Source: Acidobacteria bacterium 28-9
GTDB lineage: Bacteria; Acidobacteriota; Blastocatellia; Pyrinomonadales; Pyrinomonadaceae
Direction: 5' to 3'
DNA: 64,000 bases
Assembly: GCA_002050355.1 (NCBI GenBank)
Contig: MWYY01000049.1
Location: forward strand, 1-64,000
Shown: positions 4,404 to 49,574 of the stretch, piece after piece
Numbering within the stretch: the stretch's first letter is position 1
Layout of the letters: the number at the start of each line of letters is the position of its first letter
Notes under the pieces: generated by a model
Databases searched by the model: none
Seen by the model: the letters and a program-made list of their open reading frames with translations, nothing else
What the model was told of the DNA's origin: nothing
Translations under genes and position numbers: made by a program

Positions 4404-4470
4404 TAATGGTGAATGGTGCATGTAAGAAATCCCTTTTGATTCACCATTCATCATTCATCATTCACCATTA
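4404..4470. repeat. Inverted heptamer array, TGGTGAA word
   Basis: The left arm is taatggtgaatggtg followed by catg; the right arm is three to four copies of TTCATCA/TTCACCA ending in ccatta. The arms are reverse complements apart from two mismatches and enclose a loop of about 15 nt. The array fills the gap between convergent genes, and its terminal TTA is the stop codon (TAA on minus) of the acyltransferase. It could act as a bidirectional terminator. Confidence 0.85.
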
Positions 4471-5961
4471 TTTAATAATTTCCTCGATTTCCTTTTGCAG
4501 CGTTTCTCTCTCGACCAGTAATCTCAAGAACAGCGCGCGCTGGCGAAACAACAGCCACGTTGCTTTTATCCAAATAGTCATATCAATCACCGTTTCAAAC
4601 GAGCGCAGCGCGACGTAGCCGCACAAAATCGCAATCGGTATAGAAGCGAGCGCAAACTGCCAGCCGAAAAACCAGAAGATAACGGCGGAAACAACGAGCC
4701 ACGTTAGCGGCATAAACACCATCGCTGCGAGGATTTTGTAGGTTGAGCCAGCTTCGTCCGCGCCATGCGTTTTGAACATTAAGCCGACGAGATTTGAGAA
4801 AAGATACGCCGGCGAATGGACAATCGCGCCGATAATCGAGAGCGGCGCGAGCAGAATTAAAATAATATTTCGCAAAACCAAATAACGAAAAACATACGCC
4901 GTCGGGTGCTGCAAAACCGAAAGACTCGTCGCAGTTACGCCGCTTGTTGCCAGTTCGCTTTCGTATCGTTCGATTTTTTCGCTTAGCTCACGCATCTTTT
5001 CGGGATTGTTTTGTCCGAGAAGCCGGTATTTATCCGCCAAATCCCGAAGACGCAGAAAACTTTGCGACAAGGTTTGCTTGAACAAAAGATTTTCATAAAC
5101 GGACGAAAACAAGGCTTCGGCTTTGAGAACCGTGTCGAGTTCTTCCGCCGTTTCAAGATTTAAGGTGGTATTTCGCAAAGCCGTCTCAATTCGGTTTGTC
5201 AATTGCCGCACGGCTTCGCGCGGCGGCTCGCCGTTTTTGTCCAGTCCGACCGGCGCGACATCGAGCGTTTCGCCGTAGCGAATCAACGCTTCACTGCGAA
5301 AAGCAGTTTTGGAAGTGTAATAAAGCCCGACCGCCATTATTTTTAGAGATAAAGGATTAAGGATTAAGGATGAATCAGAAGGATTTTCTTCTTTCATCCC
5401 TTCGCCTTCATCCTTCATCCTTTGTCCCGCGCCGAGCGCGCCGAGAGCAATACGCGCCGCGCCGCTCTTCAAAGGCTGCAATTCGGTTTCGTCGTGCGAG
5501 ATGCCTTCGGGGAAAATTGCAATACAGCGATTTCGTGCGAGCAGCGCGCGGCAAATCTCAAATATTCCAAAGTTTTTTCGCATCTCCAAATTCGCGTCAA
5601 TCTGCCGATAGACCGGCAAAACTTCGAGCGCACGCATTAGAAATGCAGCGAATTTCATCGAAAAAATTGTAGATTTCGCAAGAAAAGAGATGCGGCGCGC
5701 GAGTGAAACAAAAACAAGTGCCGGGTCAATCAAACCGTTTGGATGGTTGAGAACAAAAATCACGGCGCCTGACCGCGGAACTTTCTCGATGCCCGTCGCT
5801 TCGATACGCCGAAAAAAAAGCCGCAGCGCAATGGAAATTATGGCGTGCAGAACGCGGCGAAAAAGCGTGCCTTTACCGAGAAAAATCATTTCCCAAAGCC
5901 GCAGAATTTTTACGCTTTCCGGCTTTTCGGAACGTTGATTTTGCTCGCTGGAAATTTCCAA
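4468..5961 (-). CDS. PlsC-like glycerol-phosphate acyltransferase with C-terminal membrane region
   Basis: Predicted membrane-bound acyltransferase that would transfer an acyl chain to (lyso)phosphatidic acid or a related acceptor. The HX4D-type box is LNHPNGLIDP (residues 71-80), with the conserved histidine at 73 and aspartate at 79; the second box is FPEG (150-153). At 497 residues it is about twice as long as simple PlsC proteins: a helical region and several C-terminal membrane segments (about 365-470) follow the catalytic domain. Residues about 179-207 are encoded by an inverted AAGGATT/AAGGATG array and look like an in-frame insertion inside the acyltransferase domain. Natural substrate not assigned. 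Confidence 0.85.
   Translation of the reverse strand: MEISSEQNQRSEKPESVKILRLWEMIFLGKGTLFRRVLHAIISIALRLFFRRIEATGIEKVPRSGAVIFVLNHPNGLIDPALVFVSLARRISFLAKSTIFSMKFAAFLMRALEVLPVYRQIDANLEMRKNFGIFEICRALLARNRCIAIFPEGISHDETELQPLKSGAARIALGALGAGQRMKDEGEGMKEENPSDSSLILNPLSLKIMAVGLYYTSKTAFRSEALIRYGETLDVAPVGLDKNGEPPREAVRQLTNRIETALRNTTLNLETAEELDTVLKAEALFSSVYENLLFKQTLSQSFLRLRDLADKYRLLGQNNPEKMRELSEKIERYESELATSGVTATSLSVLQHPTAYVFRYLVLRNIILILLAPLSIIGAIVHSPAYLFSNLVGLMFKTHGADEAGSTYKILAAMVFMPLTWLVVSAVIFWFFGWQFALASIPIAILCGYVALRSFETVIDMTIWIKATWLLFRQRALFLRLLVERETLQKEIEEIIK
5351..5423. repeat. Inverted AAGGATT/AAGGATG array inside the acyltransferase gene
   Basis: The left arm is three copies of aaggatt/aaggatg; the right arm contains catcctt repeated, reverse complementary to the left. 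The length keeps the reading frame open, so on the minus strand it encodes a hydrophilic segment of about 29 residues. The architecture is the same as the intergenic arrays, but the site is intragenic. Confidence 0.8.
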
Positions 5962-6042
5962 TTGTTGTTAGATTATGTCGATTTTTCATCAATTGCCATT
6001 AAATTACGGGCAATTTAACAATTATTAAGGCAGCTTTTTGGA

Positions 6043-6090
6043 AGGTGAAAAATTTATGAATATATTTAAAAATCACTAAACTTTTCACCT
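6043..6090. repeat. Short inverted repeat between the acyltransferase and the RraB-like gene
   Basis: Perfect 9-nt arms, aggtgaaaa and ttttcacct, are separated by about 30 nt of A+T-rich sequence. It lies in the 146-nt gap downstream of the minus-strand RraB-like gene. It could be a weak terminator or processing site; no U-run follows closely. Confidence 0.4.
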
Positions 6091-6107
6091 CTAATTCTAT
6101 TACCAAT

Positions 6108-6868: not shown

Positions 6869-7654
6869 CTAAGATAAACGAAATCCTGTTGTCAGAGTTG
6901 TTCCGACAATTCTAATTTTTGTAATATTCGGCGGTCCTTCATAACCGCGATACGTTTCGATTATCACGATTGCCCCGCGCGGCTCGAACGGACTCAGCAA
7001 ACTGCCGGAAATCTCCGCATTCCTAAAAGATTCATATTTCTTCGGGTCAAATTTTTTTTCGTAAATCGTTTTTCTTCCCTTTTCCTTTGAAATTAACTGC
7101 AAAATAACATTACCCGTCACTGCGTATTCATTATTAACCGTTATGTTGACCTTAATTTCAGGAGTCAGCACATCTTTCTTATAATTGATTGCAGGATTTT
7201 GCAAAGCAAACTGCTTTTGCGCCCTGATGCGGTATTGAGCCAGTTTTTGAGAAAACTCTTTCTGATTTTTTGCCCAATACTTTTTGAGCGTAACTTGAGA
7301 GTTTCCGTCGCTGTTATAACTGCGTTCCCAAAGAATTTTGTCAGTCCGCAAATCCTGAATGACCAATTTCGCAAAATAGCAGCCGCATGCTTCGTCGGCA
7401 GGTTCGACATAGAAAGCGAATTTGCCGTCTTTTGACCAACCGATTGGATAAAACTCTTCCCTCAGCAAAATCCCTTTTTTCTCTTCTTCGACGGCATTTT
7501 TGTCGCCTTTCAACATTAGTCGCGTCGGTTGAGCGTATAAAACATTTGATTGTTTGCCCTGCGCTTTACAGGGAATTTGCCCGAACAAAAATATTGCGAA
7601 AAGCGCGATTGCCGGAACATTTATTTTTCGCAGCAAAATGAATTTGTCTTTCAT
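6869..7654 (-). CDS. Secreted hypothetical protein
   Basis: A 261-residue protein. The chosen ATG at 7654 gives a clear signal peptide: a basic start, a hydrophobic core ending IFLFGQI, and cleavage near CKAQG. The longer frame to 7792 overlaps lysS and lacks this logic. The mature part has a beta-rich look with GWSKDGKFAFYVEPADE, typical of proteins that report on modelled or measured properties, followed by DEACGCYFAK with two close cysteines. Lys/Tyr-rich strands fill the C-terminal half. Family not recognised. It lies 22 nt downstream of lysS on the same strand and may be cotranscribed. Confidence 0.62.
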   Translation of the reverse strand: MKDKFILLRKINVPAIALFAIFLFGQIPCKAQGKQSNVLYAQPTRLMLKGDKNAVEEEKKGILLREEFYPIGWSKDGKFAFYVEPADEACGCYFAKLVIQDLRTDKILWERSYNSDGNSQVTLKKYWAKNQKEFSQKLAQYRIRAQKQFALQNPAINYKKDVLTPEIKVNITVNNEYAVTGNVILQLISKEKGRKTIYEKKFDPKKYESFRNAEISGSLLSPFEPRGAIVIIETYRGYEGPPNITKIRIVGTTLTTGFRLS

Positions 7655-7676: not shown

Positions 7677-9926
7677 CTATTTAACAAAATAGCCTGATAC
7701 GCGCCATTCTCCATCCGCGTCTTTCCTTGGCACAACTGTTTCCGTGCCGTTTTTTTTCTGCTCAAAAGACGTTTCATATTCGACAACGACATACTCTCCG
7801 TCCGGCGCGCCAGGCAATTCCTTGGTGTATCGTTTGGATTTCAATTTACGAGAGACGACTTTTCCAAGCGGAACCTGCGCCGACGCTAAAGAAGATTTCC
7901 ATTGCTCTGAGGTAACGGCGGTTTTGAATAAAGATGCGGCTTGATTCCAACTTTCGCCCGCATCGTCGTTATCAATTAGAGCTAACCAGTTTTCGGCGGC
8001 GGTTACGGCGGACTGTTCAGCGATTTCGCTGTGTTTCCGTTCGGGTCGCATGTGCGGGAAAAGAATCACGTCGCGGATTGAATGGCGATTTGTGAGCAGC
8101 ATAACCAATCTATCAATCCCGATGCCGATTCCGGCGGCGGGCGGCATTCCGTAAGCGAGCGCGCGAATGTAATCTTCGTCCATCACCATCGCTTCTTCGT
8201 CGCCGAGCGTCCGTTCTTTCATCTGGTCGCGGAAACGCTCCATTTGTTCCTGCGGGTCGTTGAGTTCCGAAAAACCGTTGGCGCATTCCATTCCGTTGAT
8301 AAAGAGTTCAAACCGCTCGGCGACGTTTGGGTTTTCCGGCGACGCTTTTGATAAAGGCGAAATTGATTTCGGGTAATCAATGATGAATGTTGGTTGAACA
8401 AGCAAAGGTTCAATGTTTCCAAATAATCTTTCAACTATGTGAGCTTTCTTGCGTTCGTCAGCAACTTCCTTAATAAGATAATTTCCAATAAACCCAAGCA
8501 TTCCATCTGTAAGTCCATTCTTTGAAGCTATATCTCTATCCGGCATAGATTCACTAAATAAATCTGCTTTTTCCCACAACTTGTCTATATTCTTCTGAGA
8601 CTGTGCAAACTCATCTTGTTTTTTGAAAGATTCTGAAAGTAATTCATTATCAGAAGTATTGGCAGAGAAACTTGCAACAACACCTGCTTCCACCTTTCCT
8701 AAATCCATTAACATTAGAAACGCATAAAGGCGACGTAAGTTAGTTAAACTACTAAGCCATTCTTCTTCAATTCTCGGAAATTTATAATATTTTACAATTG
8801 CCTGTTTCATCATCAATCTTTCAAACTTTGAAAAATCAATCTCATTCTCGCCATATTTCACCTGCAAACTTCCGCCCGTCGCTTTCCGCACCGATTCCTT
8901 CAACATCTGTTCGCAAAAATCCATCATTCCGTTCACGTCCATATACGCGCAATAAAATTCGAGCATCGTAAATTCGGGATTGTGTTTGTTTGAAAGACCT
9001 TCGTTGCGAAAGTTTCGATTCAGTTCGTAAACCCGCTCGAAACCGCCGACGGTCAGGCGTTTCAAATAAAGCTCCGGCGCGATGCGGGCGTAAAGCGGAA
9101 TCTTTAACGCTTCGTGAAAAGTTGAAAAAGGCTTTGCCGCCGCGCCCGTCGCTTTCGGCGTGAGCATCGGCGTTTCGACTTCGATAAAATCGTGGTCGTC
9201 CAAATAGCGGCGCATTCCGCTGATTAATTTTGCACGGCGTTCAAAAACTTCGCGCGTCGTCAAACCGTCGTGTTCGACTTGCAGGCTCGACGCAATCAAA
9301 TCGGCGTAACGAAAACGTCTTTGAAGTTCCGGGTCGCTGATACCGTGCATTTTGTCGGGCATCGGCAACATTGCTTTTGATAAAAACCGGATTGTTTCGA
9401 CATGAACCGAAAGCTCGCCCGTTTTTGTTATAAACAAATATCCTTCGACACCGATAAAATCGCCGTGGTCGAGAAAATTAAAAAGTTCCCACGCCGCATT
9501 TTCCGCTTCGATAACTTTTCCCGTGTCGTTGCTAATAGCTTTCGCATCTTGCTTGCGAACGTAGATTTGCAAACGTTCGGCGCCGTCCGACAAATGAACG
9601 AACGCCGCTTTTCCCATCACGCGCGGCGGAACGGCGAGGCGTCCGGCAACACGAACTCGAAGTTGATTCAATTCTGCGTTTACCGCGTCGCGCTGTTCGT
9701 CGGAAGGCTTTTCATTTTCGGCTAATTGCGAAATATGCGAATCGGCAATCGGGCTGGCAAACGCGACAACGCGCGTTATCGTATCTTCTTCGCCGGTTAT
9801 ACGCGAACGTTCAAATTTATTCGGATAGACGTTTCCGACAATCGCGCGTAACTTTTCAAGGTGTTCTCGACGCGCTTCGGTCTGGTCGTTCGGCTCGATA
9901 ATTTGGTCGAATTCGAAAATACTCAT
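7677..9926 (-). CDS. lysS: Lysyl-tRNA synthetase (class II) with internal insertion and C-terminal DUF4019 domain
   Basis: Charges tRNA-Lys with lysine in the cytoplasm. The N-terminal OB-fold anticodon-binding domain (to about 200) is followed by the class II core: [20 protein letters not shown] is motif 2 and [15 protein letters not shown] is motif 3. The protein has 749 residues against about 500 usual. Two additions explain most of this. About 84 extra residues lie between motifs 2 and 3 (roughly 385-470), encoded by clearly more A+T-rich DNA than the flanks. Residues 639-749 match DUF4019 ([52 protein letters not shown]), a domain usually found in secreted or lipoprotein contexts. The catalytic motifs are intact, so aminoacylation is expected. 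Confidence 0.95.
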
Positions 9927-9980
9927 AATATTTGTTTTAATAATGAAGAAAGATTATAAACCACAGACCGATTTTTGATA

Positions 9981-10049
9981 ATCGTTAATTGTTAATTGTT
10001 AATTGAAATCGCCGCTTTTACAATTTACTATTAACGATTAAACATTAAC
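9981..10049. repeat. Inverted heptamer array, GTTAATT word, between lysS and mfd
   Basis: The left arm has three copies of gttaatt; the right arm is caattta, ctattaacgattaaacattaac, reverse complementary to the left with some mismatches. It fills much of the divergent lysS/mfd gap just before the mfd ATG. Promoters for both genes must lie in or next to it. Confidence 0.72.
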
Positions 10050-10059
10050 CGTAAACGAA

Positions 10060-13000: not shown

Positions 13001-13659
13001 AACTTGAATTAACGCCGATCGCGCGCCGACGCCTTTCGGCGATTCGTGAATTTTCTGATTTGGGCGCGGGCTTTCGCATCGCGGCTCTGGACTTAGAACT
13101 GCGCGGCGCGGGAAATATTTTGGGCGGTCAGCAATCCGGTCAACTCGACGCTTTGGGATTTGACCTTTACACTAGAATGCTCGAACACACGATTCAGGAA
13201 TTAAAAGGCGATGAAATCGAAGACGAAACGAGCGTTTCGATAAATCTTGGCATAGACGTTTCGATTCCGAATGATTATATCAACGAAACGAGCCAGCGTC
13301 TGCGCACTTACAAGCGGATTTCTTCCGTTGCGCGCGAAGAAGATTTGCGCCAAATTTACTCGGAAATAAATGACCGTTACGGCAAAATGCCTGCGTCTGT
13401 GGAAAATCTGTTTCAATATGCGCGCCTTAGAAAATTAGCCGAACAAATGCACGTCGTCTCCGTTGATAAAACACGCGATGGCATTGCCGTAAAATTAGGC
13501 GAAAATGCGCGTGTTGCGCCTGAGAAATTGATGAAATTTTTAGCCGAAAACGAATGTGCAAATTTTTCGCCGGGCGGCATTTTGAAAATCATTACTGTTG
13601 AAGAAAATTTGATTGAAACCGCAAGGCGAGTTTTGGACAGTGTTAAAGTCGGTAATTAA
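10060..13659 (+). CDS. mfd: Transcription-repair coupling factor
   Basis: An ATP-driven translocase that removes stalled RNA polymerase at DNA lesions and recruits UvrA. It has 1199 residues, normal for Mfd. Domains in order: UvrB-like N-terminal module (1-400), a CarD-like RNA polymerase interaction domain (about 540-600, DFVVHVDHGIGRFEG), a superfamily 2 helicase with Walker A GDVGYGKT (690-697), DEEQ (791-794) and SATPIPRTLNMSL, and the C-terminal TRCF domain. A low-complexity stretch (about residues 72-90, rich in Asn, Ser and Gln) may be an insertion. It is transcribed divergently from lysS and alone in its unit. Confidence 0.97.
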   Translation: MSFPSESKSEFERLRGEIGTGARVISLSGLTSIASRAFVLSKLQRETKKTFVVVADSNKELETWTCDLNFWQNSIRNQNSANSQPKSGNSRLLALPSFESDVYSGVSPHAETLETRALALWSLSQNQPDFVVASIKSLITKTISPVEMRELGAVLKRDEDFAPEILLEKLIASGYVREEPIKAVGEFSVRGGIVDVWSPDAEMPVRVEFFGDTVDSIREFDAETQLSTGQIKEISLAPMREFAAGAQDFKDWAFFARERFADEKFSRNLLDRTQFADEGEDFSGWEFFIPLVKPRQSSVFDYLKDCVFVVDEPTIAENSLSLFYENLEKRFNETIEADDIGLQPTELYLNAEELREKLNKQKRIELRTLGKAASATDESLAFENENPEIQIGRNNHESKPLFLFPTAEIEQEISLGSRSTRKFHGNLKDFANEIKQKEFPTGKAQSFGDGRIFVLQSHGLAERLTEILRDYDVSVPQNSLLVGDLSAGFEIPAFDLTVYTESDIFGENTQHEYQKPQQKSARKSQKSKTAAFVSDFRDLKAGDFVVHVDHGIGRFEGLQTLQTGGLSREFMLLIYTENAKLFVPVERLDLVSRYSSGEAATPTLDRLGGLGWQKTKAKAKRAMRDMADELLRLYAERKLVEGFAFSPDTPWQEEFEDAFPYQLTVDQGTAIEDVKGDMQAAVPMDRLIVGDVGYGKTEVAMRAAFKAVMDGKQVAVLTPTTILAYQHSESFKQRFAAFPVKIELLSRFRSTKEQKAVVEKAEKGEVDILIGTHRILSNDVKVPKIGLVVVDEEQRFGVAHKEKLKQLKKKVDVLTLSATPIPRTLNMSLLGMRDMSIIETPPRDRLAINTQVVQFSEGVIKSAIELELARNGQIFFIHNRVETIEAIAALVQKIVPNARIAIGHGQMNEKEMENVMLDFVDYKYDVLVATTIIENGIDIPRANTIIINRSDNYGLSQLYQLRGRVGRSNRRAYAYLLIPSELELTPIARRRLSAIREFSDLGAGFRIAALDLELRGAGNILGGQQSGQLDALGFDLYTRMLEHTIQELKGDEIEDETSVSINLGIDVSIPNDYINETSQRLRTYKRISSVAREEDLRQIYSEINDRYGKMPASVENLFQYARLRKLAEQMHVVSVDKTRDGIAVKLGENARVAPEKLMKFLAENECANFSPGGILKIITVEENLIETARRVLDSVKVGN

Positions 13660-13716
13660 AAATTCAAACGACGATTTAAGTTTGTAAAGCAAATTTATAT
13701 TGCGGTCTGCCAATTG

Positions 13717-39084: not shown

Positions 39085-39090
39085 TATAAT
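39085..39090 (+). promoter_or_regulatory. Candidate -10 element for hicBA
   Basis: A consensus TATAAT lies 18 nt before the hicB start; the upstream -35 region is only weakly matched. The spacing fits a short or leaderless transcript. Confidence 0.4.
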
Positions 39091-39107
39091 TCTATGCGAA
39101 TAAGATC

Positions 39108-39317: not shown

Positions 39318-39318
39318 A

Positions 39319-39543: not shown

Positions 39544-39663
39544 CTGAATTCATATCAGAATTTTATAAACTAATTAATTGGTATTTGCGCCCATCATAAT
39601 TTACTTTTGCCGAAACTCTACTTATACTTCACATTATAATTTAGATGAATCAAATTAAAACGA

Positions 39664-40642: not shown

Positions 40643-40680
40643 AAGCAAAAACTTACCACTTACTGTTTAGCACTTACCAC
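40626..40680. repeat. Inverted array, TGGTAAG/GCTAAGT word
   Basis: The left arm tggtaagcgctaag contains the end of the upstream gene; the right arm is ttagcacttacca, with one mismatch to the left arm, and another ttaccacttac lies in the loop. It is the start of the gap before phoU. Confidence 0.65.
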
Positions 40681-40687
40681 TAATTAT

Positions 40688-40726
40688 TTAACTTCTTTTT
40701 AACTTTCTGTTCACACCGCGTTAAAA
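40688..40726 (+). promoter_or_regulatory. Candidate Pho box: four hexamers at an exact 11-nt period
   Basis: TTAACT (40688), TTAACT (40699), TTCACA (40710) and TTAAAA (40721) start exactly 11 nt apart. Repeats of TT(A/C/T)ACA spaced by 5 nt are the known binding pattern of PhoP/PhoB-type regulators. A possible -10 TATATT lies at 40748 and a TATAAT at 40769. It sits 76-114 nt upstream of phoU-phoB-phoR, which makes autoregulation likely. No binding data are available. Confidence 0.62.
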
Positions 40727-40801
40727 TCTTTCATTTATTCTGACGCTTATATTTCGGCTTCGCGCTTTTATAATCGGCGGTTTTAATCTACATTTCTAAT
40801 A

Positions 40802-41467
40802 ATGGAGCAAAGAAAACTTCTTGAGCGCGAATTGGACATCCTGCGCGACCGACTTTTACTGATGGGCGGCGAAGCCGAGCTTGCCGTGCAGCGCGCAATG
40901 CACGCGCTTATGCAGCGTGACAGCGACGTTGCCAATCAGGTTCTCGAACACGACGACGTTATTGACCGTCTCGAACTTGAAATTGACCGTCTTAGTGTCG
41001 AGCTTTTAACCTTGCGCCGTCCGGTTGCGCGCGAGCTTCGCCTGGTAATTTCGATTTTCAAGATTACGCCGATTTTAGAACGCATTGCCGATCACGCTTC
41101 GAGTATTGCGCGCGCCGCTCTGGAACTGAACGACGAGCCGGAACTGAAAACTTACGGCGAGTTGAACCAAATGGCTGAAAACGCCCTTGAAATGCTGCAA
41201 TCCGCGCTTGATGCTTTCACGTCGCACGACGCGAATAAAGCGCGCGAGTTGATAAAAAAAGACGAAGAGATTGACAGAATCTACGACAATCTGGCGAACA
41301 ATCTGATGGAAACAATGTCGCAGGACGCGACAAAATCAAAACGTCTGGCAAGACTTCTTTTCGTCGCAAAAAATCTGGAGAGAATCGCTGATTACGTCAA
41401 AGACGTTTGCGAGCTGACCGTTTATATGAAGGAAGCCGTTTTTATCAAACACAGCGAAAGCAGGTGA
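40802..41467 (+). CDS. phoU: Phosphate signalling regulator PhoU
   Basis: A 221-residue helical protein that links the Pst transporter to the PhoR kinase and damps the response when phosphate is plentiful. Two PhoU repeats of three helices are visible, each ending in the family metal-site motif: ITPILERIADHASSIA and AKNLERIADYVKDVCE. It leads a phoU-phoB-phoR operon. No pst genes are in the window. Confidence 0.93.
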   Translation: MEQRKLLERELDILRDRLLLMGGEAELAVQRAMHALMQRDSDVANQVLEHDDVIDRLELEIDRLSVELLTLRRPVARELRLVISIFKITPILERIADHASSIARAALELNDEPELKTYGELNQMAENALEMLQSALDAFTSHDANKARELIKKDEEIDRIYDNLANNLMETMSQDATKSKRLARLLFVAKNLERIADYVKDVCELTVYMKEAVFIKHSESR

Positions 41468-41496
41468 TAGGCGATAGCTTCTTTCCTACCTATCAC
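41464..41496. repeat. Short inverted repeat, GTGATAGG word, between phoU and phoB
   Basis: gtgataggcgatag and cctacctatcac pair over the outer eight bases. The phoU stop (TGA) lies in the left arm. It fills most of the 39-nt gap and resembles a small member of the word arrays. It may modulate read-through to phoB. Confidence 0.6.
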
Positions 41497-41506
41497 TCGA
41501 ATAATT

Positions 41507-42193
41507 ATGCCAAACGAACTTTTAATCATCGAAGACGACGCCGATATTGCCGAAAGTTTGCATTATAATTTCAAGCGTGAAGGCTTTCGTCCCGTCATTG
41601 CTGAATCGGGCGAAAAAGGCTTGCGGCTGGCGCTCGACGAGAAAAATCCGCCAGCGTTGATTATTCTCGACCTAATGCTGCCGGGAATGAGCGGAATGGA
41701 GCTTTGCCGACGCTTGCGGCGCGAGCCTCTAACGGAAAAAACGCCGATTATAATGCTGACCGCAAAAGCCGCCGAGGCTGACAAAATCGCCGGACTCGAC
41801 CTCGGCGCGGACGATTATATCGTCAAGCCGTTTTCGGTTAAGGAAGTCGTCGCGCGTGTGCGAGCCGTGATGCGGCGCATTGAAAAAGACGAAATTCAGC
41901 GTTACGAATACGGCAGTCTGACAATTGATTTTGCCGACGTGCGTGTTGCCTGCGCCGGCGCGGACGTTAAACTCACCCGCAAAGAGTTTGCTTTGCTCAC
42001 ATATTTGATAAAAAGCGCGGGGCGAGTCGCAACCCGTCAAAACCTGCTCGACAACGTTTGGGGTTACAGTTATTTCGGCGACACGCGCACGCTCGACGTT
42101 CACATTCGCCGCCTGCGCCAGAAATTAGGCGACTGCGGCAATTGTATCGAAACTGTCGTCGGCATTGGTTACCGCTTTATAGAAGTGAAATGA
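41507..42193 (+). CDS. phoB: Response regulator, PhoB/OmpR family
   Basis: A 228-residue transcription factor. The receiver domain has the acidic pair E9-D10-D11, phosphoacceptor D55 (IILDLMLPG), T85 and K107 (YIVKPF). The winged-helix DNA-binding domain has LTRKEFALLTYLIKSAG and ends VDVHIRRLRQKLGD with a TVVGIGYRF hairpin. It is placed between phoU and phoR, so phosphate limitation is the probable signal. Its stop overlaps the phoR start (ATGA). Confidence 0.93.
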   Translation: MPNELLIIEDDADIAESLHYNFKREGFRPVIAESGEKGLRLALDEKNPPALIILDLMLPGMSGMELCRRLRREPLTEKTPIIMLTAKAAEADKIAGLDLGADDYIVKPFSVKEVVARVRAVMRRIEKDEIQRYEYGSLTIDFADVRVACAGADVKLTRKEFALLTYLIKSAGRVATRQNLLDNVWGYSYFGDTRTLDVHIRRLRQKLGDCGNCIETVVGIGYRFIEVK

Positions 42194-43266
42194 GTTTTTT
42201 TGAAAATTGGTTTGGAAATAGAAAAGCGGACGAGAAAGTTTCGCCCGTTGTTTTGAACAAAATCCTGGAAACGATGCGCGAAAGCGTGATTGTCGTTGGT
42301 GAGGATACGCGCATTTTATCTTCCAATCAAGCAGCGTATCAAGCATTTGCACGGAAAAACGGCGCGCTCGAAGATAAACGCTTGAGCGAAGTCATCCGTG
42401 ATTTAACTTTGCACGAAGCCTTTCGTAAAGCGCTCGAAGAAAACGTTTCGTCTGACATTGAACTGGAAATTCCGAGTCTCGAAAGCCGCCGTTACGATGC
42501 GCACGTTGCGCCGATTGTGTTGGAAAACGGACGAAGTGCAATCGGAGTTTTTTACGACATTACACAGATTGAACATCTCGAACGGGTTCGACAGGAATTT
42601 TTATCAAACATATCGCACGAGCTTCGCACGCCTTTGACTTCAATTATTGCTTTTGTCGAAACGCTCGAAGACGGCGCGATAAAAGACGAGGAAAATAACC
42701 AACGCTTTTTGAGCGTCATTCGCAAAAATGCGCAAAGAATGCACCGCCTGATTGACGATATTCTGGAGCTTTCGACAATCGAATCGGGGAAAATCAGACT
42801 CGAAATAAAAAAGGTAAACTTACCAGCTTTAATCGAAGAAGTTTTCACTAATCTTTCCGGCAAAGCCGCCGAACGTCATATTACATTAACGAATGAAATT
42901 CCCGAAGATGCGTTTGTTTTCGCCGATGCCGTCAGGCTCGAACAAATGCTCACGAATTTAATTGACAACGCCGTAAAGTTTAATTCCGACGCCGGAAAAG
43001 TCACCGTCAAACACAAGCGAACCGACATAAAAGACGTGATTTCCGTCTCGGACACGGGCGAAGGGATTTCCGGCGAACATCTTCAACGAATTTTTGAACG
43101 CTTTTACCGTACAGACCGCGCGCGCTCGCGCGAAATCGGCGGTACCGGTTTAGGGCTGGCAATCGTCAAACATCTGGCGCGGCTTCACGAGGGCGAAGTT
43201 TCCGTCGCTTCGACAATTGGTAAAGGCACGACTTTTTCTCTTGAACTGCCCGTAAAATCTGTCTAA
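42190..43266 (+). CDS. phoR: Sensor histidine kinase, PhoR-like, without membrane segments
   Basis: A 358-residue kinase coupled to phoB by ATGA at 42190; a longer frame from 42058 runs through phoB and is rejected. A PAS domain (about 20-125) is followed by HisKA with H143 (SNISHELRTPLTS) and HATPase_c with the N box (LTNLIDNAVKF), G1 (VSDTGEGIS) and G2 (GGTGLGLAIVKH). No hydrophobic membrane segment is visible, unlike most PhoR proteins, so it should be cytoplasmic and rely on the PAS domain or PhoU for its signal. Confidence 0.92.
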   Translation: MSFFENWFGNRKADEKVSPVVLNKILETMRESVIVVGEDTRILSSNQAAYQAFARKNGALEDKRLSEVIRDLTLHEAFRKALEENVSSDIELEIPSLESRRYDAHVAPIVLENGRSAIGVFYDITQIEHLERVRQEFLSNISHELRTPLTSIIAFVETLEDGAIKDEENNQRFLSVIRKNAQRMHRLIDDILELSTIESGKIRLEIKKVNLPALIEEVFTNLSGKAAERHITLTNEIPEDAFVFADAVRLEQMLTNLIDNAVKFNSDAGKVTVKHKRTDIKDVISVSDTGEGISGEHLQRIFERFYRTDRARSREIGGTGLGLAIVKHLARLHEGEVSVASTIGKGTTFSLELPVKSV

Positions 43267-43403
43267 AATCATTTCAAGATTTTCTTCCAAGCAAATGTTA
43301 TCTGTGTTACAATAAGCCTACTTCAACAATTTGGCTCAAACGCAAATCGACTTTGTTGTTCGTTTTTCAATTTTTTGAATGTTATCTAAAAGGAGAAAGC
43401 GCA

Positions 43404-43940
43404 ATGGAATTAAAAATTGGACAAAAGGTTTCTTACCCGAATCAAGGTATTTGCATGGTCGAAGATATTGAAGGAAAAAAAATCGGCGACGAACGGATGA
43501 ATTTTTACCTTTTGCGAATTTTAAGCGATAATTCGACGATTTTTGTGCCGATGGCAAACGCTGAAACAGTCGGCATCCGACCGATTATCGGCGCGAAAGA
43601 ATACAAAAATCTGATAGACGGTTTGAGTGCGGATTTCAGCGACGTTTCCAGCGACTGGAAAACGCGCTCGCGCGAATACAGCGAACAGCTCCAATCGGGG
43701 TGCGTTTTCAGAGCGGCTGACGTTTTGAAAAAACTCACCTTTTTAAGTCTCGAGAAGAAACTTTCGCTGCGCGAACAAACCTTGCTTGAGAAAGCACGAT
43801 TTTTAATCGTCTCTGAAATCACAAACGCCGGTTTAGCCAGCGAAAACAAAATCGAAACCAAGATAAGTCAGCTTATCGAAAACGCCTGCGTCAAACATCA
43901 CGCAACCCAGCCGCGCGTGATGGCGGCGGCAAGTCATTGA
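43404..43940 (+). CDS. CarD-family transcriptional regulator
   Basis: A 178-residue protein. A strong Shine-Dalgarno (AGGAG at 43391) fixes the ATG at 43404. The N-terminal CarD/TRCF domain (KIGQKVSYPNQGICMVEDIE to FVPMANAETVGIRPI) binds the RNA polymerase beta subunit and stabilises open complexes; the C-terminal half is helical, as in CarD/CdnL proteins. A possible -10 (TACAAT at 43308) precedes it. It is a single-gene unit, converging on queF. Confidence 0.9.
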   Translation: MELKIGQKVSYPNQGICMVEDIEGKKIGDERMNFYLLRILSDNSTIFVPMANAETVGIRPIIGAKEYKNLIDGLSADFSDVSSDWKTRSREYSEQLQSGCVFRAADVLKKLTFLSLEKKLSLREQTLLEKARFLIVSEITNAGLASENKIETKISQLIENACVKHHATQPRVMAAASH

Positions 43941-43943
43941 AAA

Positions 43944-43997
43944 CAATTACGAATTAAAAGAAAATCTCTGATATTTGTAATTTGAAATTCGTAATTT
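43944..43997. terminator. Inverted repeat between carD-like gene and queF
   Basis: caattacgaatt and aattcgtaattt pair around a loop of about 30 nt between convergent genes. The queF stop overlaps its right end. It may act as a bidirectional terminator, although the loop is long. Confidence 0.55.
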
Positions 43998-44421
43998 ATG
44001 CTTTATCCCTTGTGTAGTTTGCTCGCACAATAGTTTTGATATTTCCGCGCACGTGAAAATCGCCTTCAATCTCGACTCTTAACGGGTCGCACGCCTTGAC
44101 GAAATCTTCCAGAATAATATTGACGACGTGTTCGTGGAAAACTTTTATTTCTCGAAACGAATTGATGTAGAGTTTCAAACTTTTCAGTTCAATACAGCGC
44201 TCGTTCGGCACGTATTTTAATTTAATAACGGCAAAATCCGGAAAGTCCGAAAACGGGCAAATCGCCGTAAATTCCGGAATTTCAAAATCAATCCAAATCT
44301 CGCGCCCGGCGTATTCATATCGAAAAGTATCGAGCGGAAAAAGGTTCATCGCTTCGCGCGGCGTTGAGCGAATATCTAAATTTTGCTGATTTGTGGGCGG
44401 TAAATTTACTTCGTCTAACAT
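43996..44421 (-). CDS. queF: 7-cyano-7-deazaguanine (preQ0) reductase
   Basis: Reduces preQ0 to preQ1 in queuosine tRNA modification, using NADPH. It has 141 residues, the short unimodular form. The ATG at 44421 places the catalytic Cys at 55 and Asp at 62 ([11 protein letters not shown]), the same numbering as the Bacillus enzyme. The QueF motif [14 protein letters not shown] is intact. A Shine-Dalgarno (GGAG on minus) precedes this start, against a longer frame to 44475. No other que genes are nearby. Confidence 0.95.
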
Positions 44422-44517
44422 AGAAAACTCTCCGTTAAATAATCGAAACGACAATTCTACAACAAAACGCTTCAAAAAATTAAATCGCCTCGCCTTGAAA
44501 GTAATTTGAAAAGCTAC

Positions 44518-45318
44518 TTAAAATCTCAGCCGTTTCGCTGCGGCTAAATCCCGAACGCCTCGTGATTCAAGTTCGCCCAAAAAGTTTACGAAAATATGCG
44601 CGGTTGCGTGCGCGTCGTCGCTGGCGCGGTGATGATTCACGAGCGCGACCGAATAATAGGCGGCAACCGTGTTGAGGCGATGATTTTCAATATGCGGCAA
44701 CAGTTTGCGCGCTAATTTAACTGTACAAAGATGCGCGTTGGCAACGCGATATGCTTCGTAAATTCTGCTGATTTCATGGTTCAAAAAGCGCAAATCAAAA
44801 TTCGCGTTGTGGGCGACTAAAACCGCGTCGCCGATAAAATCCAAAAACTCGTGCGCGACTTCGCGGAACTTCGGCGCGGTTTTAACCATTCCGTTCGTAA
44901 TACCTGTCAGTTGCGAAATAAACGTCGGAATCTGTGTTTCGGGATTGACGAGCGTTTGAAATTCGGCGACTATTTTACCGTTTTTGACGCGATAGGCGCC
45001 GATTTCCGTGATGCGGCACGGCGGAGTTTTCGCGCCCGTCGTTTCCAAATCGAATACGACAAATTCGGTTTCAGCCAAGTTTCGTTTTCTCGTGCTGATT
45101 TGCACCAGTTCGACCGTATCTTTGTTTAATTGAAGGCGCGGGTCAATTTCAACCAAATCCGAAACCAGAAGACGCGCTAAATCCGCGTCGGGCGCGGAGA
45201 TTTTCATCACATAATCGACCACTTTGATCGCCGACGCGCGACCGCCGAAAGCATTCAGAAGCTCGATTGTTTCGCTAACGAGTAAGGAGTCGGAAATTAA
45301 ATTGGAAGGCGGCGGCAT
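44518..45318 (-). CDS. DnaQ-like 3'-5' exonuclease
   Basis: A 266-residue protein with an N-terminal helical module of about 75 residues and a DEDDh exonuclease domain: FDLETTGAKTPPCRITEIGA (Exo I), VAHNANFDLRFL (Exo II) and HRASDDAHATA (Exo III His and Asp). It resembles the epsilon proofreading subunit or the exonuclease half of UvrC-related fusions, but no GIY-YIG domain follows. It may act in repair or proofreading. It is divergent from the membrane protein gene across a repeat array. Confidence 0.87.
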   Translation of the reverse strand: MPPPSNLISDSLLVSETIELLNAFGGRASAIKVVDYVMKISAPDADLARLLVSDLVEIDPRLQLNKDTVELVQISTRKRNLAETEFVVFDLETTGAKTPPCRITEIGAYRVKNGKIVAEFQTLVNPETQIPTFISQLTGITNGMVKTAPKFREVAHEFLDFIGDAVLVAHNANFDLRFLNHEISRIYEAYRVANAHLCTVKLARKLLPHIENHRLNTVAAYYSVALVNHHRASDDAHATAHIFVNFLGELESRGVRDLAAAKRLRF

Positions 45319-45323
45319 ATTTA

Positions 45324-45422
45324 TAATGGTAAATGGTAAATAGTAAATAGTAAATCAAAGAATCTGTCTTACATTTACCATTTACCATTTACCATTTACC
45401 ATTACTTATTTACTATTTACCA
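45324..45422. repeat. Inverted heptamer array, TGGTAAA word, in a divergent gap
   Basis: The left part is taatggtaaatggtaaatag plus tagtaaat; the right part is four copies of atttacc and then cttatttactatttacca. The arms pair over 25 nt or more. The array occupies nearly the whole gap between two divergent genes and abuts the ATG at 45423, leaving no Shine-Dalgarno. Promoters for both genes must overlap it. Confidence 0.88.
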
Positions 45423-47507
45423 ATGTTTGTTTCTCTGTTTCTGCTTTTTCTTTTGACCGTCGGTGGTTTCGCTTTGACGTATCTTTTTGCCAAAGACGAA
45501 ACACTGTTTTGGCGCGCGTGTGCCGGAAACGTTGTCGGCTCGGTTGTTTTTTCTTTAATTTGCTTTTTAGCTGCGTGCCTGTTTGGTTTTACAACGCTAA
45601 CCGTTTCCGTTTCGTATTTGCTGACGCTTTTGCCTTTGATTTTATTTACTCGAAAAGACTTCAGACAAAATTTTTCATCTGATTGGCGAACGGCGACGAA
45701 AAAACTTGAAGACACGGATTTTAAAAAACTTCTGCGCGCTGGTTATTACGCTTTCTTTTTCGTTCTGTTCTGGTTTTTTTTCCAGCGCGCGATGATGGAA
45801 ACCGGCGGCGGAATATTTATCGGCTCGTCGCACAATCTGGGCGATTTGCCGTTTCATCTCGGCGCGATTTTTTCTTTCACCGACGGGCAAAACTTCCCGC
45901 CCGAAAATCCTTCGTTTGCCTTTGCCAAATTTACTTATCCGTTTATGGCGGATTTGGTTGTGGCAAGTTTCGTTGAATTCGGAGCGCGCGTCAGCGATGC
46001 GATGCTCGCGCAAAACGTTTTCCTAGCCTTTTCTCTGCTGGTTATTTTAGAAAGATTTACCCTTAAATTTACCGGCAATCGTATCGCGGCGAAAATCGCG
46101 CCGGCTCTTTTATTTCTCTGCGGCGGCATCGGTTTTCTGTGGTTTTTCAAAGACGCGCTGCAATCGGCGGACGGATTCTTTAAATATTTTGGGAATCTTC
46201 CCGTAGATTACACGATTCGAGAGGAAAAATTTCGCTGGGGAAATACTTTGTCGCTGTTTCGCTGGGGCAATTCGCTGACGACGCTGTTTTTAACGCAGAG
46301 AAGTTTACTTTTGGGAATGCCGCTGACACTGATTGCTTTGCAGAAAGTTTGGGAAATTTTTAGCTTTGGTCAGAAACAAGAAGATGAAATCAAGAAGCCA
46401 TTTTCCATTTCCCAGTTTCCACTTTCCACTTTCATTGTCGGTCTTCTCGCCGGGACTTTGCCGCTTGTTCACACGCACAGTTTAGTGGTTTTATTCCTCG
46501 TCTGCGCGTTTTTGTTTTTCTTCAGCGTAAGTAAATGGCGCGAATGGTTTGCCTTTGGAATCGGCGTTTCGATTATCGCCGTTCCCGAACTTCTCTGGGC
46601 AATGACGGGCAGCGCGACGCGCTTCGGCGTGTTTTTCGATTGGCATTTCGGTTGGGACTCGCGCGGCGAAAATATCTTTTTATTCTGGGCGAAAAATTTG
46701 GGCTTGTTTATTCCGCTGCTTGCTTTGGGAATTTATTTTGTTTTTAGAAATAAAAATCAAAAAATTGAACCGCGGATAAACGCAGATAAACACAAATTAA
46801 ATCAAGGCGGTCAACAGTCAGCAATCAGAAGTCAACAGGACAAATTAATTCACCATTCACCATTCACCATTCACCATTTACTTTTCTACGTTCCGTTTCT
46901 GCTGTGTTTTATCGTTCCGAATCTTGTTCGGCTTGCACCTTGGGAATGGGATAATATTAAGGTTTTGATTTACTGGTTTGTCGGTTCTGTTCCATTTGTC
47001 GCGCTGGTTTTGGCACGGCTTTTGGAAAGAAAAACAGTTTTTAAGTTTGCTGCCGCAGCTTGTTTGATTGTTTTGACTTCGGCGGGCGCGCTCGACGTTT
47101 GGCGCGTCGCTTCACGCGCGGTCAATTATCAAGTGTTTGAGCGGGATTCAGTAAAAATCGCCGAGCAAATCAAACAAAAAACGCCGCCGCGCGCTTTGTT
47201 TCTCAACGCGCCGACTTATAATACTGCCGTCGTCTTGTCGGGCAGGCGTTCGCTAATGCGTTATACCGGACATCTTCAATCTTACGCAATTGATTTCGAA
47301 CCGCGCGAGAGCGAGGTCAAAAGAATTTACGAAGGCTCGGCTGCGTCGGAGAGCTTACTAAAAAAATACGACATTGATTATATTTTAATCAGCCCGGAAG
47401 AGCGCAGTTACGCGCAGACAAACAACACACGGCTTAATGAAGATTATTTTCGCCGGTTTCCTGTCATTGCGGAAGTCGGGCAATATCGAGTTTATAAAGT
47501 TAAGTAA
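45423..47507 (+). CDS. Large polytopic membrane protein, putative GT-C-type glycosyltransferase
   Basis: A 694-residue protein with at least 12 hydrophobic segments and a soluble C-terminal domain of about 120 residues. An N-terminal loop near 125-165 reads GSSHNLGDLPFHLGAIFSF, an acidic/His pattern compatible with the catalytic loop of GT-C enzymes, but the family is not recognised. Two stretches are encoded by repeat words: about residues 326-337 (FSISQFPLST) and 449-486 (EPRINADKHKLN, then SAIRSQQDK, then HHSPFTIHH). Both fall between membrane helices. It is followed by another GT-C protein (Agl23-like), suggesting a glycan assembly role. Confidence 0.75.
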   Translation: MFVSLFLLFLLTVGGFALTYLFAKDETLFWRACAGNVVGSVVFSLICFLAACLFGFTTLTVSVSYLLTLLPLILFTRKDFRQNFSSDWRTATKKLEDTDFKKLLRAGYYAFFFVLFWFFFQRAMMETGGGIFIGSSHNLGDLPFHLGAIFSFTDGQNFPPENPSFAFAKFTYPFMADLVVASFVEFGARVSDAMLAQNVFLAFSLLVILERFTLKFTGNRIAAKIAPALLFLCGGIGFLWFFKDALQSADGFFKYFGNLPVDYTIREEKFRWGNTLSLFRWGNSLTTLFLTQRSLLLGMPLTLIALQKVWEIFSFGQKQEDEIKKPFSISQFPLSTFIVGLLAGTLPLVHTHSLVVLFLVCAFLFFFSVSKWREWFAFGIGVSIIAVPELLWAMTGSATRFGVFFDWHFGWDSRGENIFLFWAKNLGLFIPLLALGIYFVFRNKNQKIEPRINADKHKLNQGGQQSAIRSQQDKLIHHSPFTIHHLLFYVPFLLCFIVPNLVRLAPWEWDNIKVLIYWFVGSVPFVALVLARLLERKTVFKFAAAACLIVLTSAGALDVWRVASRAVNYQVFERDSVKIAEQIKQKTPPRALFLNAPTYNTAVVLSGRRSLMRYTGHLQSYAIDFEPRESEVKRIYEGSAASESLLKKYDIDYILISPEERSYAQTNNTRLNEDYFRRFPVIAEVGQYRVYKVK
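46398..46434. repeat. TTTCCAC word array inside the membrane protein gene
   Basis: ccattttccatttcccagtt followed by tccactttccactttca is a direct array of a 7-nt word. It is in frame and encodes FSISQFPLST between two membrane segments. No inverted partner is adjacent. Confidence 0.6.
46768..46880. repeat. Three different repeat words in frame inside the membrane protein gene
   Basis: The insertion holds aaccgcggataaacgcagat then aaacacaaatt (46768-46798), ggtcaacagtcagcaatcag then aagtcaacag (46809-46838) and four copies of attcacc (46847-46880). Each resembles a repeat word seen at or near intergenic sites. Together they encode about 38 hydrophilic residues without a stop. Confidence 0.85.
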
Positions 47508-47520
47508 GTCAGACAAGAAA

Positions 47521-47578
47521 AATGGTGAATGATGAATGATGAATGATGATTGTTAAGAACTTTCTTTCATTCACCATT
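47521..47578. repeat. Asymmetric heptamer array, TGGTGAA/TGATGAA word
   Basis: The left part has four copies, aatggtgaatgatgaatgat and on; the right part is only cattcaccatt. They pair over 11 nt. It lies in the gap between two large membrane protein genes on the plus strand. Confidence 0.78.
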
Positions 47579-47607
47579 ATAAAACCTGCGGTTATATTTT
47601 TACCGAA

Positions 47608-49407
47608 ATGAGCGAACAGGAAAATCAAATAATGACAGACGATAAACAGCAAACAGCCGACAAACTATGGCTTGTCGGCTGTTCGATTATCACGGCAATC
47701 GCCGCGTTTGTGCGTTTTTATAATCTCGAACTAAAACCGCTGCATCACGACGAAGGCGTCAACGGGTTTTTTTTGACGACGCTTTTCCGCGAAGGCGTTT
47801 ATAAATACGACCCGAGCAATTATCACGGTCCGACGCTTTACTACTTTGCGCTCGCGTTCTCAAAAATGTTCGGCTTTAATACTGTAAGCATTCGCGCCAG
47901 CGTGGCGATTTTCGGTGTTTTGACGGTTGTGCTGGCGTTCTTTCTAAAAAATTACATCGGCAAAATCGGTAGTCTCGCCGCCGCGTTGTTTCTCGCGCTG
48001 TCGCCCGGAATGGTTTTTATCTCGCGTTATTTTATACACGAAATTTTGTTTGTTTTTTTTAGTTTCGCTATCGTCGTCGGCGTTCTGTATTTCATCGAAA
48101 AGCAAAAGGCGGGAGTTTTTGCGATTTCGGCAATGACGTTTTTGCTGCTCATCTGCTTGCTGCCGACGGCGCTGAATTTAGCAAACGCGATTGGCGAGCA
48201 AAACGCGACACTTGTTTGGATTGTGCGCGTCGGTCTTTTTGCCGTTGAAGCGGTTCTTGTTTTTTTGATAATGCGAATGCTTCTGGCTTGGAACGAAGGC
48301 AGAGCAATTTATTTAATACTCGCGTCCGCCTCGGCGGTTTTGCTTTTTGCCACAAAAGAAACGGCGTTTATCACGATTGCGACGATGTTGATTGCCTGCC
48401 TGTGCGTTTGGATTTGGCGGAAAATTTACCGTGCAGCGTTCGGCGAACCGAAAGCAAACGAGATTGAACCGGTTGAATTGACGTGGCGAAATTTCCGCGC
48501 TCGGGTGGGTGATTCAAGCGATTTGACATTGCTGATTGTCGCAGTTTCGGTCGTTTTCGCTTACGTCGGCATTTTGTTTTTCTCGTCGTTTTTCACTTAT
48601 TCCGAAGGCGTTTCCAAAGCGTTTGAGGCTTACAGTTTGTGGACGAAAACCGGAACAAAAGACCACACGCAAAATGGAATATGGGCTTATCTGAAATGGG
48701 GAATGAAGCTGGAATCGCCGATTCTTCTGCTTTCCGCACTCGGAACTTTGATTGCGCTGGCAAAAGCGCGGCATCGCTTTGCCGTTTTTGCAGGCTTTTG
48801 GGCATTAGGAATGTTCGCCGCTTACACGATTATTCCGTATAAAACGCCTTGGCTCGCATTGTCATTTTTGCTCCCGATGTGCATTATTGGCGGTTACGGC
48901 GTCAACGAATTACTAGCCGCCAAAGATAAAATCGTTAAACTTCTTGGCGCGCTCGTTTTACTTTTCGCCGCTGCAATTTTGGGTATTCCAACTTACGATT
49001 TGAATTTTCAAAGATACGACGATGATTCGATGCCGTATGTTTATGCGCACACAAAACGCGGATTCCACGACCTTATCAAACAAATCGAGTATTACGCCGA
49101 CAAAAGCGGCAAAAGTAAAGACGCGGCAATCGAAATCGTCTCGCCCGATTACTGGTCGATGCCCTGGTATATGCGCGAATACCCGAAAGCAATTTTTCAC
49201 GGGCAATTTGCCGACGCGACCGCATCGGAAATGATTGTCGCATCTACCGCGCAGACCGCAGAATTAAACAGGCGTTACGGCGCGAGTTACAAACACGCCG
49301 GAACATATCCTTTGCGTCCGGGTGTTGATTTGATTCTGCTGGTGCGGAAAGATTTAGCGGAGGCGAATGCGCAGGACATTTACAAAATCAGTAAAGTAGC
49401 GCCCTAA
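47608..49407 (+). CDS. Agl23-like GT-C membrane protein (TIGR03663 family)
   Basis: A 599-residue polytopic protein of the GT39-like group. The N-terminal part has AFVRFYNLELKPLHHDEGVN, with the acidic catalytic-loop residues, and YDPSNYHGPTLYYFALAFSK; both are typical of the TIGR03663/Agl23 family. About 11 membrane segments are followed by a soluble C-terminal domain (EIVSPDYWSMPWYMREYP). Members occur with glycan flippase and transferase genes and probably transfer a sugar from a lipid carrier outside the membrane. Substrate unknown. Confidence 0.85.
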   Translation: MSEQENQIMTDDKQQTADKLWLVGCSIITAIAAFVRFYNLELKPLHHDEGVNGFFLTTLFREGVYKYDPSNYHGPTLYYFALAFSKMFGFNTVSIRASVAIFGVLTVVLAFFLKNYIGKIGSLAAALFLALSPGMVFISRYFIHEILFVFFSFAIVVGVLYFIEKQKAGVFAISAMTFLLLICLLPTALNLANAIGEQNATLVWIVRVGLFAVEAVLVFLIMRMLLAWNEGRAIYLILASASAVLLFATKETAFITIATMLIACLCVWIWRKIYRAAFGEPKANEIEPVELTWRNFRARVGDSSDLTLLIVAVSVVFAYVGILFFSSFFTYSEGVSKAFEAYSLWTKTGTKDHTQNGIWAYLKWGMKLESPILLLSALGTLIALAKARHRFAVFAGFWALGMFAAYTIIPYKTPWLALSFLLPMCIIGGYGVNELLAAKDKIVKLLGALVLLFAAAILGIPTYDLNFQRYDDDSMPYVYAHTKRGFHDLIKQIEYYADKSGKSKDAAIEIVSPDYWSMPWYMREYPKAIFHGQFADATASEMIVASTAQTAELNRRYGASYKHAGTYPLRPGVDLILLVRKDLAEANAQDIYKISKVAP

Positions 49408-49414
49408 AAATCGT

Positions 49415-49444
49415 GGCGGCAACCTTTTCGGCTGAAACGCCGCC
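49415..49444 (+). terminator. GGCGGC stem after the Agl23-like gene
   Basis: ggcggc and gccgcc are separated by about 18 nt just after the stop codon. There is no clear T-run, so it may be a weak terminator or a transcript-stabilising hairpin. Confidence 0.35.
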
Positions 49445-49461
49445 TAATGTTTCAGAAAGGA

Positions 49462-49574
49462 AATTTAACCGCAGATGTACACAGATAGACATAGATAAAA
49501 ATCGGACAAAAGCAAAAAATTAATTTTTCTATCTGCCAATATCTGCGTTCATTTGCGTTCAGCTGCGGTTAAAT
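49462..49574. repeat. Inverted CCGCAGAT-type array before the aminopeptidase gene
   Basis: The left part is aatttaaccgcagatgtaca plus cagatagacatagat; the right part is atctgccaatatctgcgttc, then atttgcgttcagctgcggtt, then aaatt. The outer arms pair well (aatttaaccgcag with ctgcggttaaatt). It fills the gap upstream of the M1 peptidase gene. Confidence 0.82.

Follow-up and report, generated by a model that had tools for sequence, protein, structure and literature searches.

Inverted arrays of tandem heptamers and the replacement of their words in Acidobacteria bacterium 28-9 and related Pyrinomonadaceae

The window examined here is a 64,000-nt stretch of the genome of Acidobacteria bacterium 28-9 (Pyrinomonadaceae; contig MWYY01000049.1, here C24:1-64000, in an assembly of 3.65 Mb in 117 contigs), and the elements in question are inverted arrays scattered along it, in which tandem copies of a short word are followed by a loop and by the reverse complement of the same word. 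Genes recognized in the window encode Mfd, a PepN-like aminopeptidase and SufB. The Mfd protein is closest to those of Acidobacteria/Pyrinomonadaceae metagenome-assembled genomes (MAGs), with 73-76% identity over the full protein and higher values in a few best segments. No Rfam family matched the window above its gathering threshold. In what follows, G000 is the own genome, other G numbers are genomes of the family, and L numbers are stretches of DNA from the own genome or from relatives.

Words of the AATGGTG, AATGGTA and AATGATG type are shared by four arrays, at 4404-4470 (AATGGTG/AATGATG, in a convergent gap; fold z -4.0), 34425-34496 (AATGGTG, filling its gap; z -7.8), 45324-45403 (AATGGTA/AATAGTA, filling the gap between divergent open reading frames (ORFs); z -9.2) and 47521-47578 (AATGATG/AATGGTG; z -2.9). 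Further arrays are built of GTTAATT (9979-10056, in the divergent gap directly upstream of mfd), AATGATA/AATGGTA (15350-15429, in reversed orientation with a pyrimidine-rich 5' arm), the period-9 word GGAGAGTCT (20954-21028; z -6.4), AAAAGTA (22524-22578, overlapping an ORF end; z -7.8), AATTACG (43945-43996, weak; z -1.8) and a CGCAGATRWA-like word of period 10 (49467-49575; z -4.6), while an AAGGATT/AAGGATG array at 5348-5426 lies in frame within an acyltransferase ORF (4468-5961, minus strand). All of these were found by a strict detector. An array of the word CGCAGAG with period 8-10 (17538-17629; z -4.0) was found by the exact-word scan only, and a weak array of AGTGGTA, AGTGCTA and CAGTAAG that overlaps an ORF end (40624-40688; z -3.3) was missed by the detectors. 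The initial annotation had placed the arrays in intergenic gaps, each with its own word. Not all arrays are purely intergenic, since one sits inside an ORF and those at 22524 and 40624 run over ORF ends, and a word is not confined to its site, as AATGGTG-type words recur at the four sites given above.

Three detectors were used, namely the exact-word scan, a loose detector of a tandem word of period 6-12 with a nearby inverted copy, and the strict detector. The strict detector returned 11 window arrays against one in total across 20 dinucleotide shuffles, the loose detector 13 sites against a mean of 0.83 (maximum 3) in 12 dinucleotide shuffles, and the exact-word scan 13 sites against a mean of 2.12 (maximum 7). 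The shared layout reported earlier at ten sites is therefore real: eight of them (4404, 5351, 9981, 15349, 20953, 34425, 45324 and 49462) passed the strict detector, 17534 passed no test other than the exact-word one, and 40626 failed both the strict and the exact-word detectors and still folds better than its shuffles. Sites 22524, 43945 (with a fold z of just -1.8) and 47521 are strict arrays beyond those ten, and fold z over the window arrays ranged from -1.8 to -9.2.

In 20 further stretches of the own genome (282 kb), 17 strict arrays were found against 0-4 in five shuffles, although eight of the 20 contigs had been preselected as carriers of an AATGGTG 17-mer and one stretch, L117, includes such a match. 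An excess of arrays over shuffles was also present in relatives. Nearly all loci come from MAGs, and an artefact of metagenome binning and assembly might be invoked on that account; this we consider scarcely credible, given the orthologous placement of arrays in independent assemblies, the in-frame insertions, and the absence of strict arrays from a 50-kb E. coli control run with the same detector. Some sequence sets overlap (L066/L216, L028/L215, L038/L217-L218, L041/L205 and L044/L209), so the gap totals and the period and bias totals below count some elements twice. Gap and coding calls depend on a crude ORF caller. G+C-rich segments were dropped as probable coding repeats above 0.72 in the flank, ortholog and fold comparisons, and at 0.75-0.8 in the anatomy and word-bias sets.

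Over 164 deduplicated elements from the window, the genome sample and relatives, the median arm measures 31 nt, the loop 16.5 nt and the whole element 82 nt, and an arm typically holds about four imperfect tandem copies of a short word, usually of 7 nt. The best period was 7 in 142 of 226 inverted arrays and 14 in 31 more, in a loose set that includes some G+C-rich coding repeats. The 5' arm was purine-rich in 139 of the 164 elements and pyrimidine-rich in 22, so by the symmetry of the arms the purine-rich strand points to the center on both sides; A-rich sequence closes the 5' arm next to the loop and T-rich sequence opens the 3' arm, and the loop itself begins A-rich and ends T-rich. The words share a heptamer composition, which is a bias and not a rule. 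Their best common rotation, TGNYRAR-like, carried 3.84 bits compared with 2.70 (maximum 2.82) for letter-permuted words. ARTNNNV was present on the center-pointing strand of 95 of 154 arrays and on the other strand of 15 (permuted words: mean 46, maximum 59), and in 35 of 73 distinct words (permuted: 20, maximum 29). In the own genome alone the bias was not significant (8 of 12 against 5.8, maximum 10). Words of the window such as AATGGTG, GTTAATT and CGCAGAG have no GGG tract that could form a G-quadruplex.

Several word families co-exist in one genome. AACGATG with a GCGG variant occurs at four sites in L028, GGGTGCT and CACAGAG each recur several times in L044, AGTGACR recurs in L066, and one AATGGTG 17-mer occurs 23 times in the own genome (reversed control, none). 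When G060 was queried with 20 kb of its genus-mate G061 and 40 of 1044 candidates were scored, at least 34 near-full-length copies of the AGTGACR element (matches of at least 74 nt) were found beyond the syntenic matches. Stretches from genus g37 gave 27 AGTGACR matches, two of them double-counted overlaps and six partial; the remaining copies, from G060 and G061, mostly have four units per arm, similar ends and a broadly similar loop, with A/G changes clustered at unit junctions. The proposal that the element is defined by structure and not by sequence holds insofar as words change within a kept architecture, but it is only partly right in view of the clear sequence families, with those copies in G060, and of the shared heptamer bias.

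Beyond single genera, RTGAATG in three copies was found in 8 of 32 genomes from the class against 3 of 265 others from the phylum, one of which also matches the reversed control. Within the family, genera g10 and g37 are rich in arrays, whereas most of g8 is poor in them as judged by the words tested. The pattern GATGANNGCGGANNGATGANNGATGA, with the unit order GATG-GCGG-GATG-GATG and differing letters between, occurs in 46 of 119 family genomes, and its reversed control in one. In these matches the order of the variant unit stays while the remaining letters change together: the same NN stands at all three places in 118 of 150 among the matches listed (counted by eye), with 31/31 in G022, 14/16 in G012 and 9/15 in G056. 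Such concert is partly expected where one family dominates, as in G022; G012 and G056 hold several versions. Within single elements, unit variants are mirrored between both arms (e.g. L118:8080-8159), and nested hairpins were seen by eye at L049:1466-1604, L225:16907-17063 and L226:1773-1985. Two side observations concern copies in close proximity. In the own genome, identical inverted arrays at L116:15248-15311 and 16829-16892 stand 1.58 kb apart and look like a recent local duplication, and in L044 a stretch of 21 kb contains three almost identical period-8 hairpins of the CACAGAG type (1260-1324, 13642-13706 and 21678-21741).

Comparison of orthologous gaps revealed that, between flanks 87-94% identical, both arms have often been rebuilt from another word while the hairpin architecture is kept. 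Three gaps with AACGATG arrays in L028 hold AGTGACR arrays in L066; between L041 and L044 several gaps have switched word, and in other gaps just one of the two species has an array. The positions given as R also differ between orthologous arrays. In directional counts, which may include a site once from either side and whose pairs have genomes in common, the word was the same in 6 and changed in 2 cases at 92% identity or more (4 pairs), the same in 6, changed in 10 and without an array in 4 at 86-92% (5 pairs), the same in 4, changed in 7 and without an array in 13 at 82-86% (8 pairs), and the same in 17, changed in 67 and none or empty in 90 below 82% (107 pairs). One word change was seen at 93.5% identity (G061:15495 vs G060 C53). 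Of 13 arrays compared between G123 and G122, 3 had changed, 5 were absent and 5 lacked anchors; three of those scored as absent resemble G+C-rich coding repeats, and in one partner gap (8524-8588) a weak array of another word is discernible by eye. An array lies within 260 nt upstream of mfd in 15 of 53 loci, the window included and some having little upstream sequence; in nine of the 15 the array stops 72-79 nt short of the match start. By eye, 11 different words could be told apart. Because the same spot keeps a hairpin while its word differs between related species, something seems to keep rewriting it. The earlier suggestion of an ongoing process, with presence/absence differences at orthologous gaps, is thereby borne out; the outcomes named as refuting it, a scarcity of copies or arrays that are the same at every orthologous site, were not found.

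Arrays also occur inside coding sequence. The ORF at 45423-47507 encodes 694 aa and has no NCBIfam match; a second copy of its protein, with 65% identity, is encoded in the own genome at G000:C98:2131-4173. On the plus strand, one coding loop of this ORF contains tandem CCACTTT heptamers (46398-46433) with no inverted partner detected, and in the same loop four same-genus relatives (L131, L132, L133 and L134) have in-frame inverted arrays of four different words. A second loop contains three adjacent tandem arrays on the plus strand in the window (46771-46885: CGCAGATAAA with period 10, a GTCAACA-like word identified by eye, and ATTCACC), for which no inverted partner was seen, and tandem arrays in L130-L134 (5 of 9 relatives). 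The reading frames of the array-bearing homologues are open. At the site of the array in the acyltransferase ORF, two of seven same-genus relatives (L155 and L156) have tandem arrays of other words and five (L150-L154) have none; the row for L157, a wrong ORF that belongs to Mfd, was left out of the alignment. Across the sets, 25 to 66 gaps held an array (21 in the own set), and 7, 54 and 33 arrays per set fell outside called gaps, part of them G+C-rich coding false matches and part real coding arrays, given the crude ORF caller. In a separate observation, a 26-nt tandem repeat is present twice at 19617-19670, within a KDO transferase-like gene.

The position of the arrays relative to genes raises the alternative that they are bidirectional terminators or mRNA 3'-end hairpins under structural selection, whose words drift since pairing alone matters. 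Divergent gaps contain arrays less often than other gaps (11/152 vs 101/637, p=0.006; the sets overlap in part), and of the 77 arrays in same-strand gaps 57 are closer to the upstream stop. This gene-end bias, the strength of the window hairpins and the finding that L041 has a different, perfect G+C-rich hairpin (6940-6998) where L044 has a GGGTGCT array all favor such a role, although the bias may reflect tolerance as well as function. However, the T-tract of a terminator is mostly missing: TTTT adjoins the 3' arm in no more than 20 of the 164 elements, compared with a background of 8 and with 14 for AAAA at the same place. Nor do the 42 orthologous gaps in which no array was detected form better folds than 112 controls (median z -0.72 vs -0.50, p=0.85). 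Few T-tracts, together with array-less orthologous gaps that are not hairpin-prone, do not fit simple conserved terminators, and the idea that each site needs a hairpin for some function is unsupported. The full inverted arrays within genes are hard to reconcile with a general terminator role, and drift cannot explain replacement of a whole word with its tandem order kept. We therefore judge structural selection on terminators to be rather unlikely as the explanation. In 33000-52000, a simple terminator and promoter scan gave 55 sites resembling terminators, compared with 37.8 (sd 6.4) in shuffles; none of the 55 is a long array, partly since the loop limit of the scan is 8 nt. The convergent gap at 33739-33804 contains a long A+T-rich, near-perfect palindrome without tandem words, perhaps an ordinary terminator.

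Dispersed families of fixed size with fairly sharp ends, their presence or absence at orthologous gaps and a palindromic form as in REPINs would also be expected of REPIN-type elements or miniature inverted-repeat transposable elements (MITEs) that a transposase mobilizes in trans. Each word family would then be an element family, and replacement would be insertion at favored sites followed by loss of the old copy. A Y1_Tnp match was present in 43 of 50 named relatives, but the other seven, all with arrays at the mfd locus and including L041, L044, L066 and L033, had none in a search of incomplete MAGs with this one transposase model, which is not RAYT-specific. Moreover, genomes with more Y1 matches tend to have a lower density of arrays (Spearman -0.45, p=0.001, n=50, phylogeny not corrected), and a RAYT/Y1 transposase was rejected as a necessary partner on these two grounds. 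Beyond the ends of 19 AGTGACR copies, the flanks show no complementarity (48/133 pairs, a value reached by 2007 of 5000 shuffles), and no clean empty site with target duplication was noticed, without a formal test, in these flanks or in the empty/filled pairs. Movement by a transposase is thus a possibility that we consider unlikely. Insertion into the loop of an existing hairpin was likewise rejected as a general rule, on the non-complementary flanks and the lack of an excess of outer inverted pairs.

Other candidate machinery was sought in the same 50 genomes. RVT_1 matched in 13, with one match each in L041 and L044 and none in L028, L033 or L066, and Ku matched in eight, with none in L028, L033, L041, L044 or L066; the array-bearing L033 and L066 had no Y1_Tnp, RVT_1 or Ku match. 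Reverse transcriptase and Ku were rejected as general requirements within the limits of incomplete MAGs. Since the bins are incomplete and related, these negatives speak against necessity and not against any role.

We tentatively favor, with a little less than even confidence, the interpretation that the arrays are dispersed palindromic repeats of high turnover whose hairpins are copied between sites, perhaps by template switching during replication. Families with a shared word co-exist in a genome, sites are re-used over long times with the word replaced on both arms, and elements also sit in frame in genes and in the loops of other elements. The excess over shuffles, the dispersed copies in G060 and the concerted unit letters speak for this interpretation as well. 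So does the finding that two same-word orthologous arrays of G060 and G061, 83 and 84% identical, resemble each other no more than the median of all pairs among 14 copies (82%), although their flanking DNA aligns at about 93.5-95%. Mirrored arm variants, nested hairpins and whole-word replacement together suggest template-switch copying between hairpins, and the origin by template-switching repair proposed in the initial annotation fits the first two of these, a fit that makes it plausible and no more. A stalled end at a hairpin might switch template through short homologies, for which 7-nt units would offer many registers; a new hairpin would arise, in replication or repair, as a copy of an element at another genomic site, one arm could then be copied into the other by palindrome correction, mirroring its unit variants, and older arms would be lost. 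Upkeep seems to be mainly self-propagation tolerated at gene ends and in protein loops, and not that of a required terminator.

Slippage of the polymerase and palindrome correction acting at each site, with no copying between sites, would account for R positions that vary between orthologs, and a published guess (PMC4692102) attributes the heptamer excess to slippage linked to the contact length of the polymerase. Such a local origin is very improbable, because one word occurs at many sites of a genome and is changed at several sites together in the sister species (L028/L066), elements of one family share loop features, and the GATG-GCGG-GATG-GATG order recurs across 46 of 119 genomes with different intervening letters. 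A bolder version of copying between sites, which we hold to be improbable, would have a dedicated copying machinery rewrite hairpins of about four ART-biased heptamers genome-wide as interchangeable cassettes. The mobile unit would be the architecture, the words would be lineage-specific dialects sweeping many sites, and the word bias and the concerted letters (118 of 150 among the matches listed) would be the footprint of that machinery's recognition.

Several observations weigh against copying by template switching. No copying event was seen and no enzyme was identified, nor was there a clean empty site with target duplication. The GTTTCAA array downstream of mfd is kept in L028, L035 and L066, and GTAAATG in a gap of L041 and L044, both at 87-89% identity. 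The same-word ortholog pairs of G060 and G061 number just two. Neither simple slippage nor copying alone explains why two letters change together in every unit while the unit order is kept. A systematic search of the DNA around elements for outer inverted pairs gave 2/195, no excess over the 0-2 obtained with mismatched flanks, and the nested hairpins were noticed by eye. Finally, depletion in divergent gaps and the bias to the upstream stop could point to a function at 3' ends.

Repeats of heptamers are on record from scattered bacteria, and there is no consensus on how they arise. A bacterial family in which such hairpins are numerous, a genome has several word families, and related species differ in word while site and architecture persist makes that origin testable, and it would caution against taking hairpins of this sort for conserved terminators or RNAs. 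An open-access literature search found no published report of such arrays in Acidobacteriota, which is weak evidence of absence.

Cyanobacterial STRR sequences are dispersed, intergenic, strain-specific tandem heptamers, and REP, BIME and REPIN elements are dispersed extragenic palindromes that occur in families. The present arrays differ from REP and REPIN elements in that their arms are tandem heptamers and several array-bearing genomes have no Y1 (RAYT-type) match. According to PMC4692102, the GGGAATC repeats of Xanthomonas have 7-nt units, mostly four per array, are intergenic and in most cases have the same neighboring genes in two species, where they vary in length and sequence; 70 and 75 cases of two close convergent arrays, inverted with the G-rich strand towards the center, are counted there, and heptamers are described as over-abundant in bacteria, with a polymerase-slippage hypothesis cited. 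The unit length, the roughly four units per arm and the pairing of inverted arrays are thus alike, but Xanthomonas has one word (GGGANTN) that is G-quadruplex-capable, whereas here there are many words per genome, those of the window lack G-tracts, and the word is replaced between species. The P6b stem of the Nostoc tRNA-Leu intron (PMC4476775) consists of heptanucleotides of class I (TDNGATT) or class II (NNTGAGT) that have been repeatedly replaced. There too, 7-nt repeats pair with their complements and a whole hairpin is swapped for another word with pairing kept, at one locus in a self-splicing intron with two word classes, compared with many loci and words at gene ends and in coding loops here. 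The earlier view that the paired inverted form sets these arrays apart from known heptamer repeats is accordingly not supported, since such forms are reported in the Xanthomonas and Nostoc cases. TAACTGA repeats (PMC4679880) are patchy across Beggiatoaceae, Cyanobacteria and Bacteroidetes and resemble the present arrays as dispersed, intergenic, strain-specific tandem heptamers; they are described as direct repeats with one indirect repeat, whereas the paired hairpin form is the rule here. The ARTNNNV bias is matched as well by the Xanthomonas word, two Nostoc words and TAACTGA, and not by the H. pylori word tested. Known features are thus combined in these arrays, to which are added the co-existence of word families and the replacement of words at many loci.

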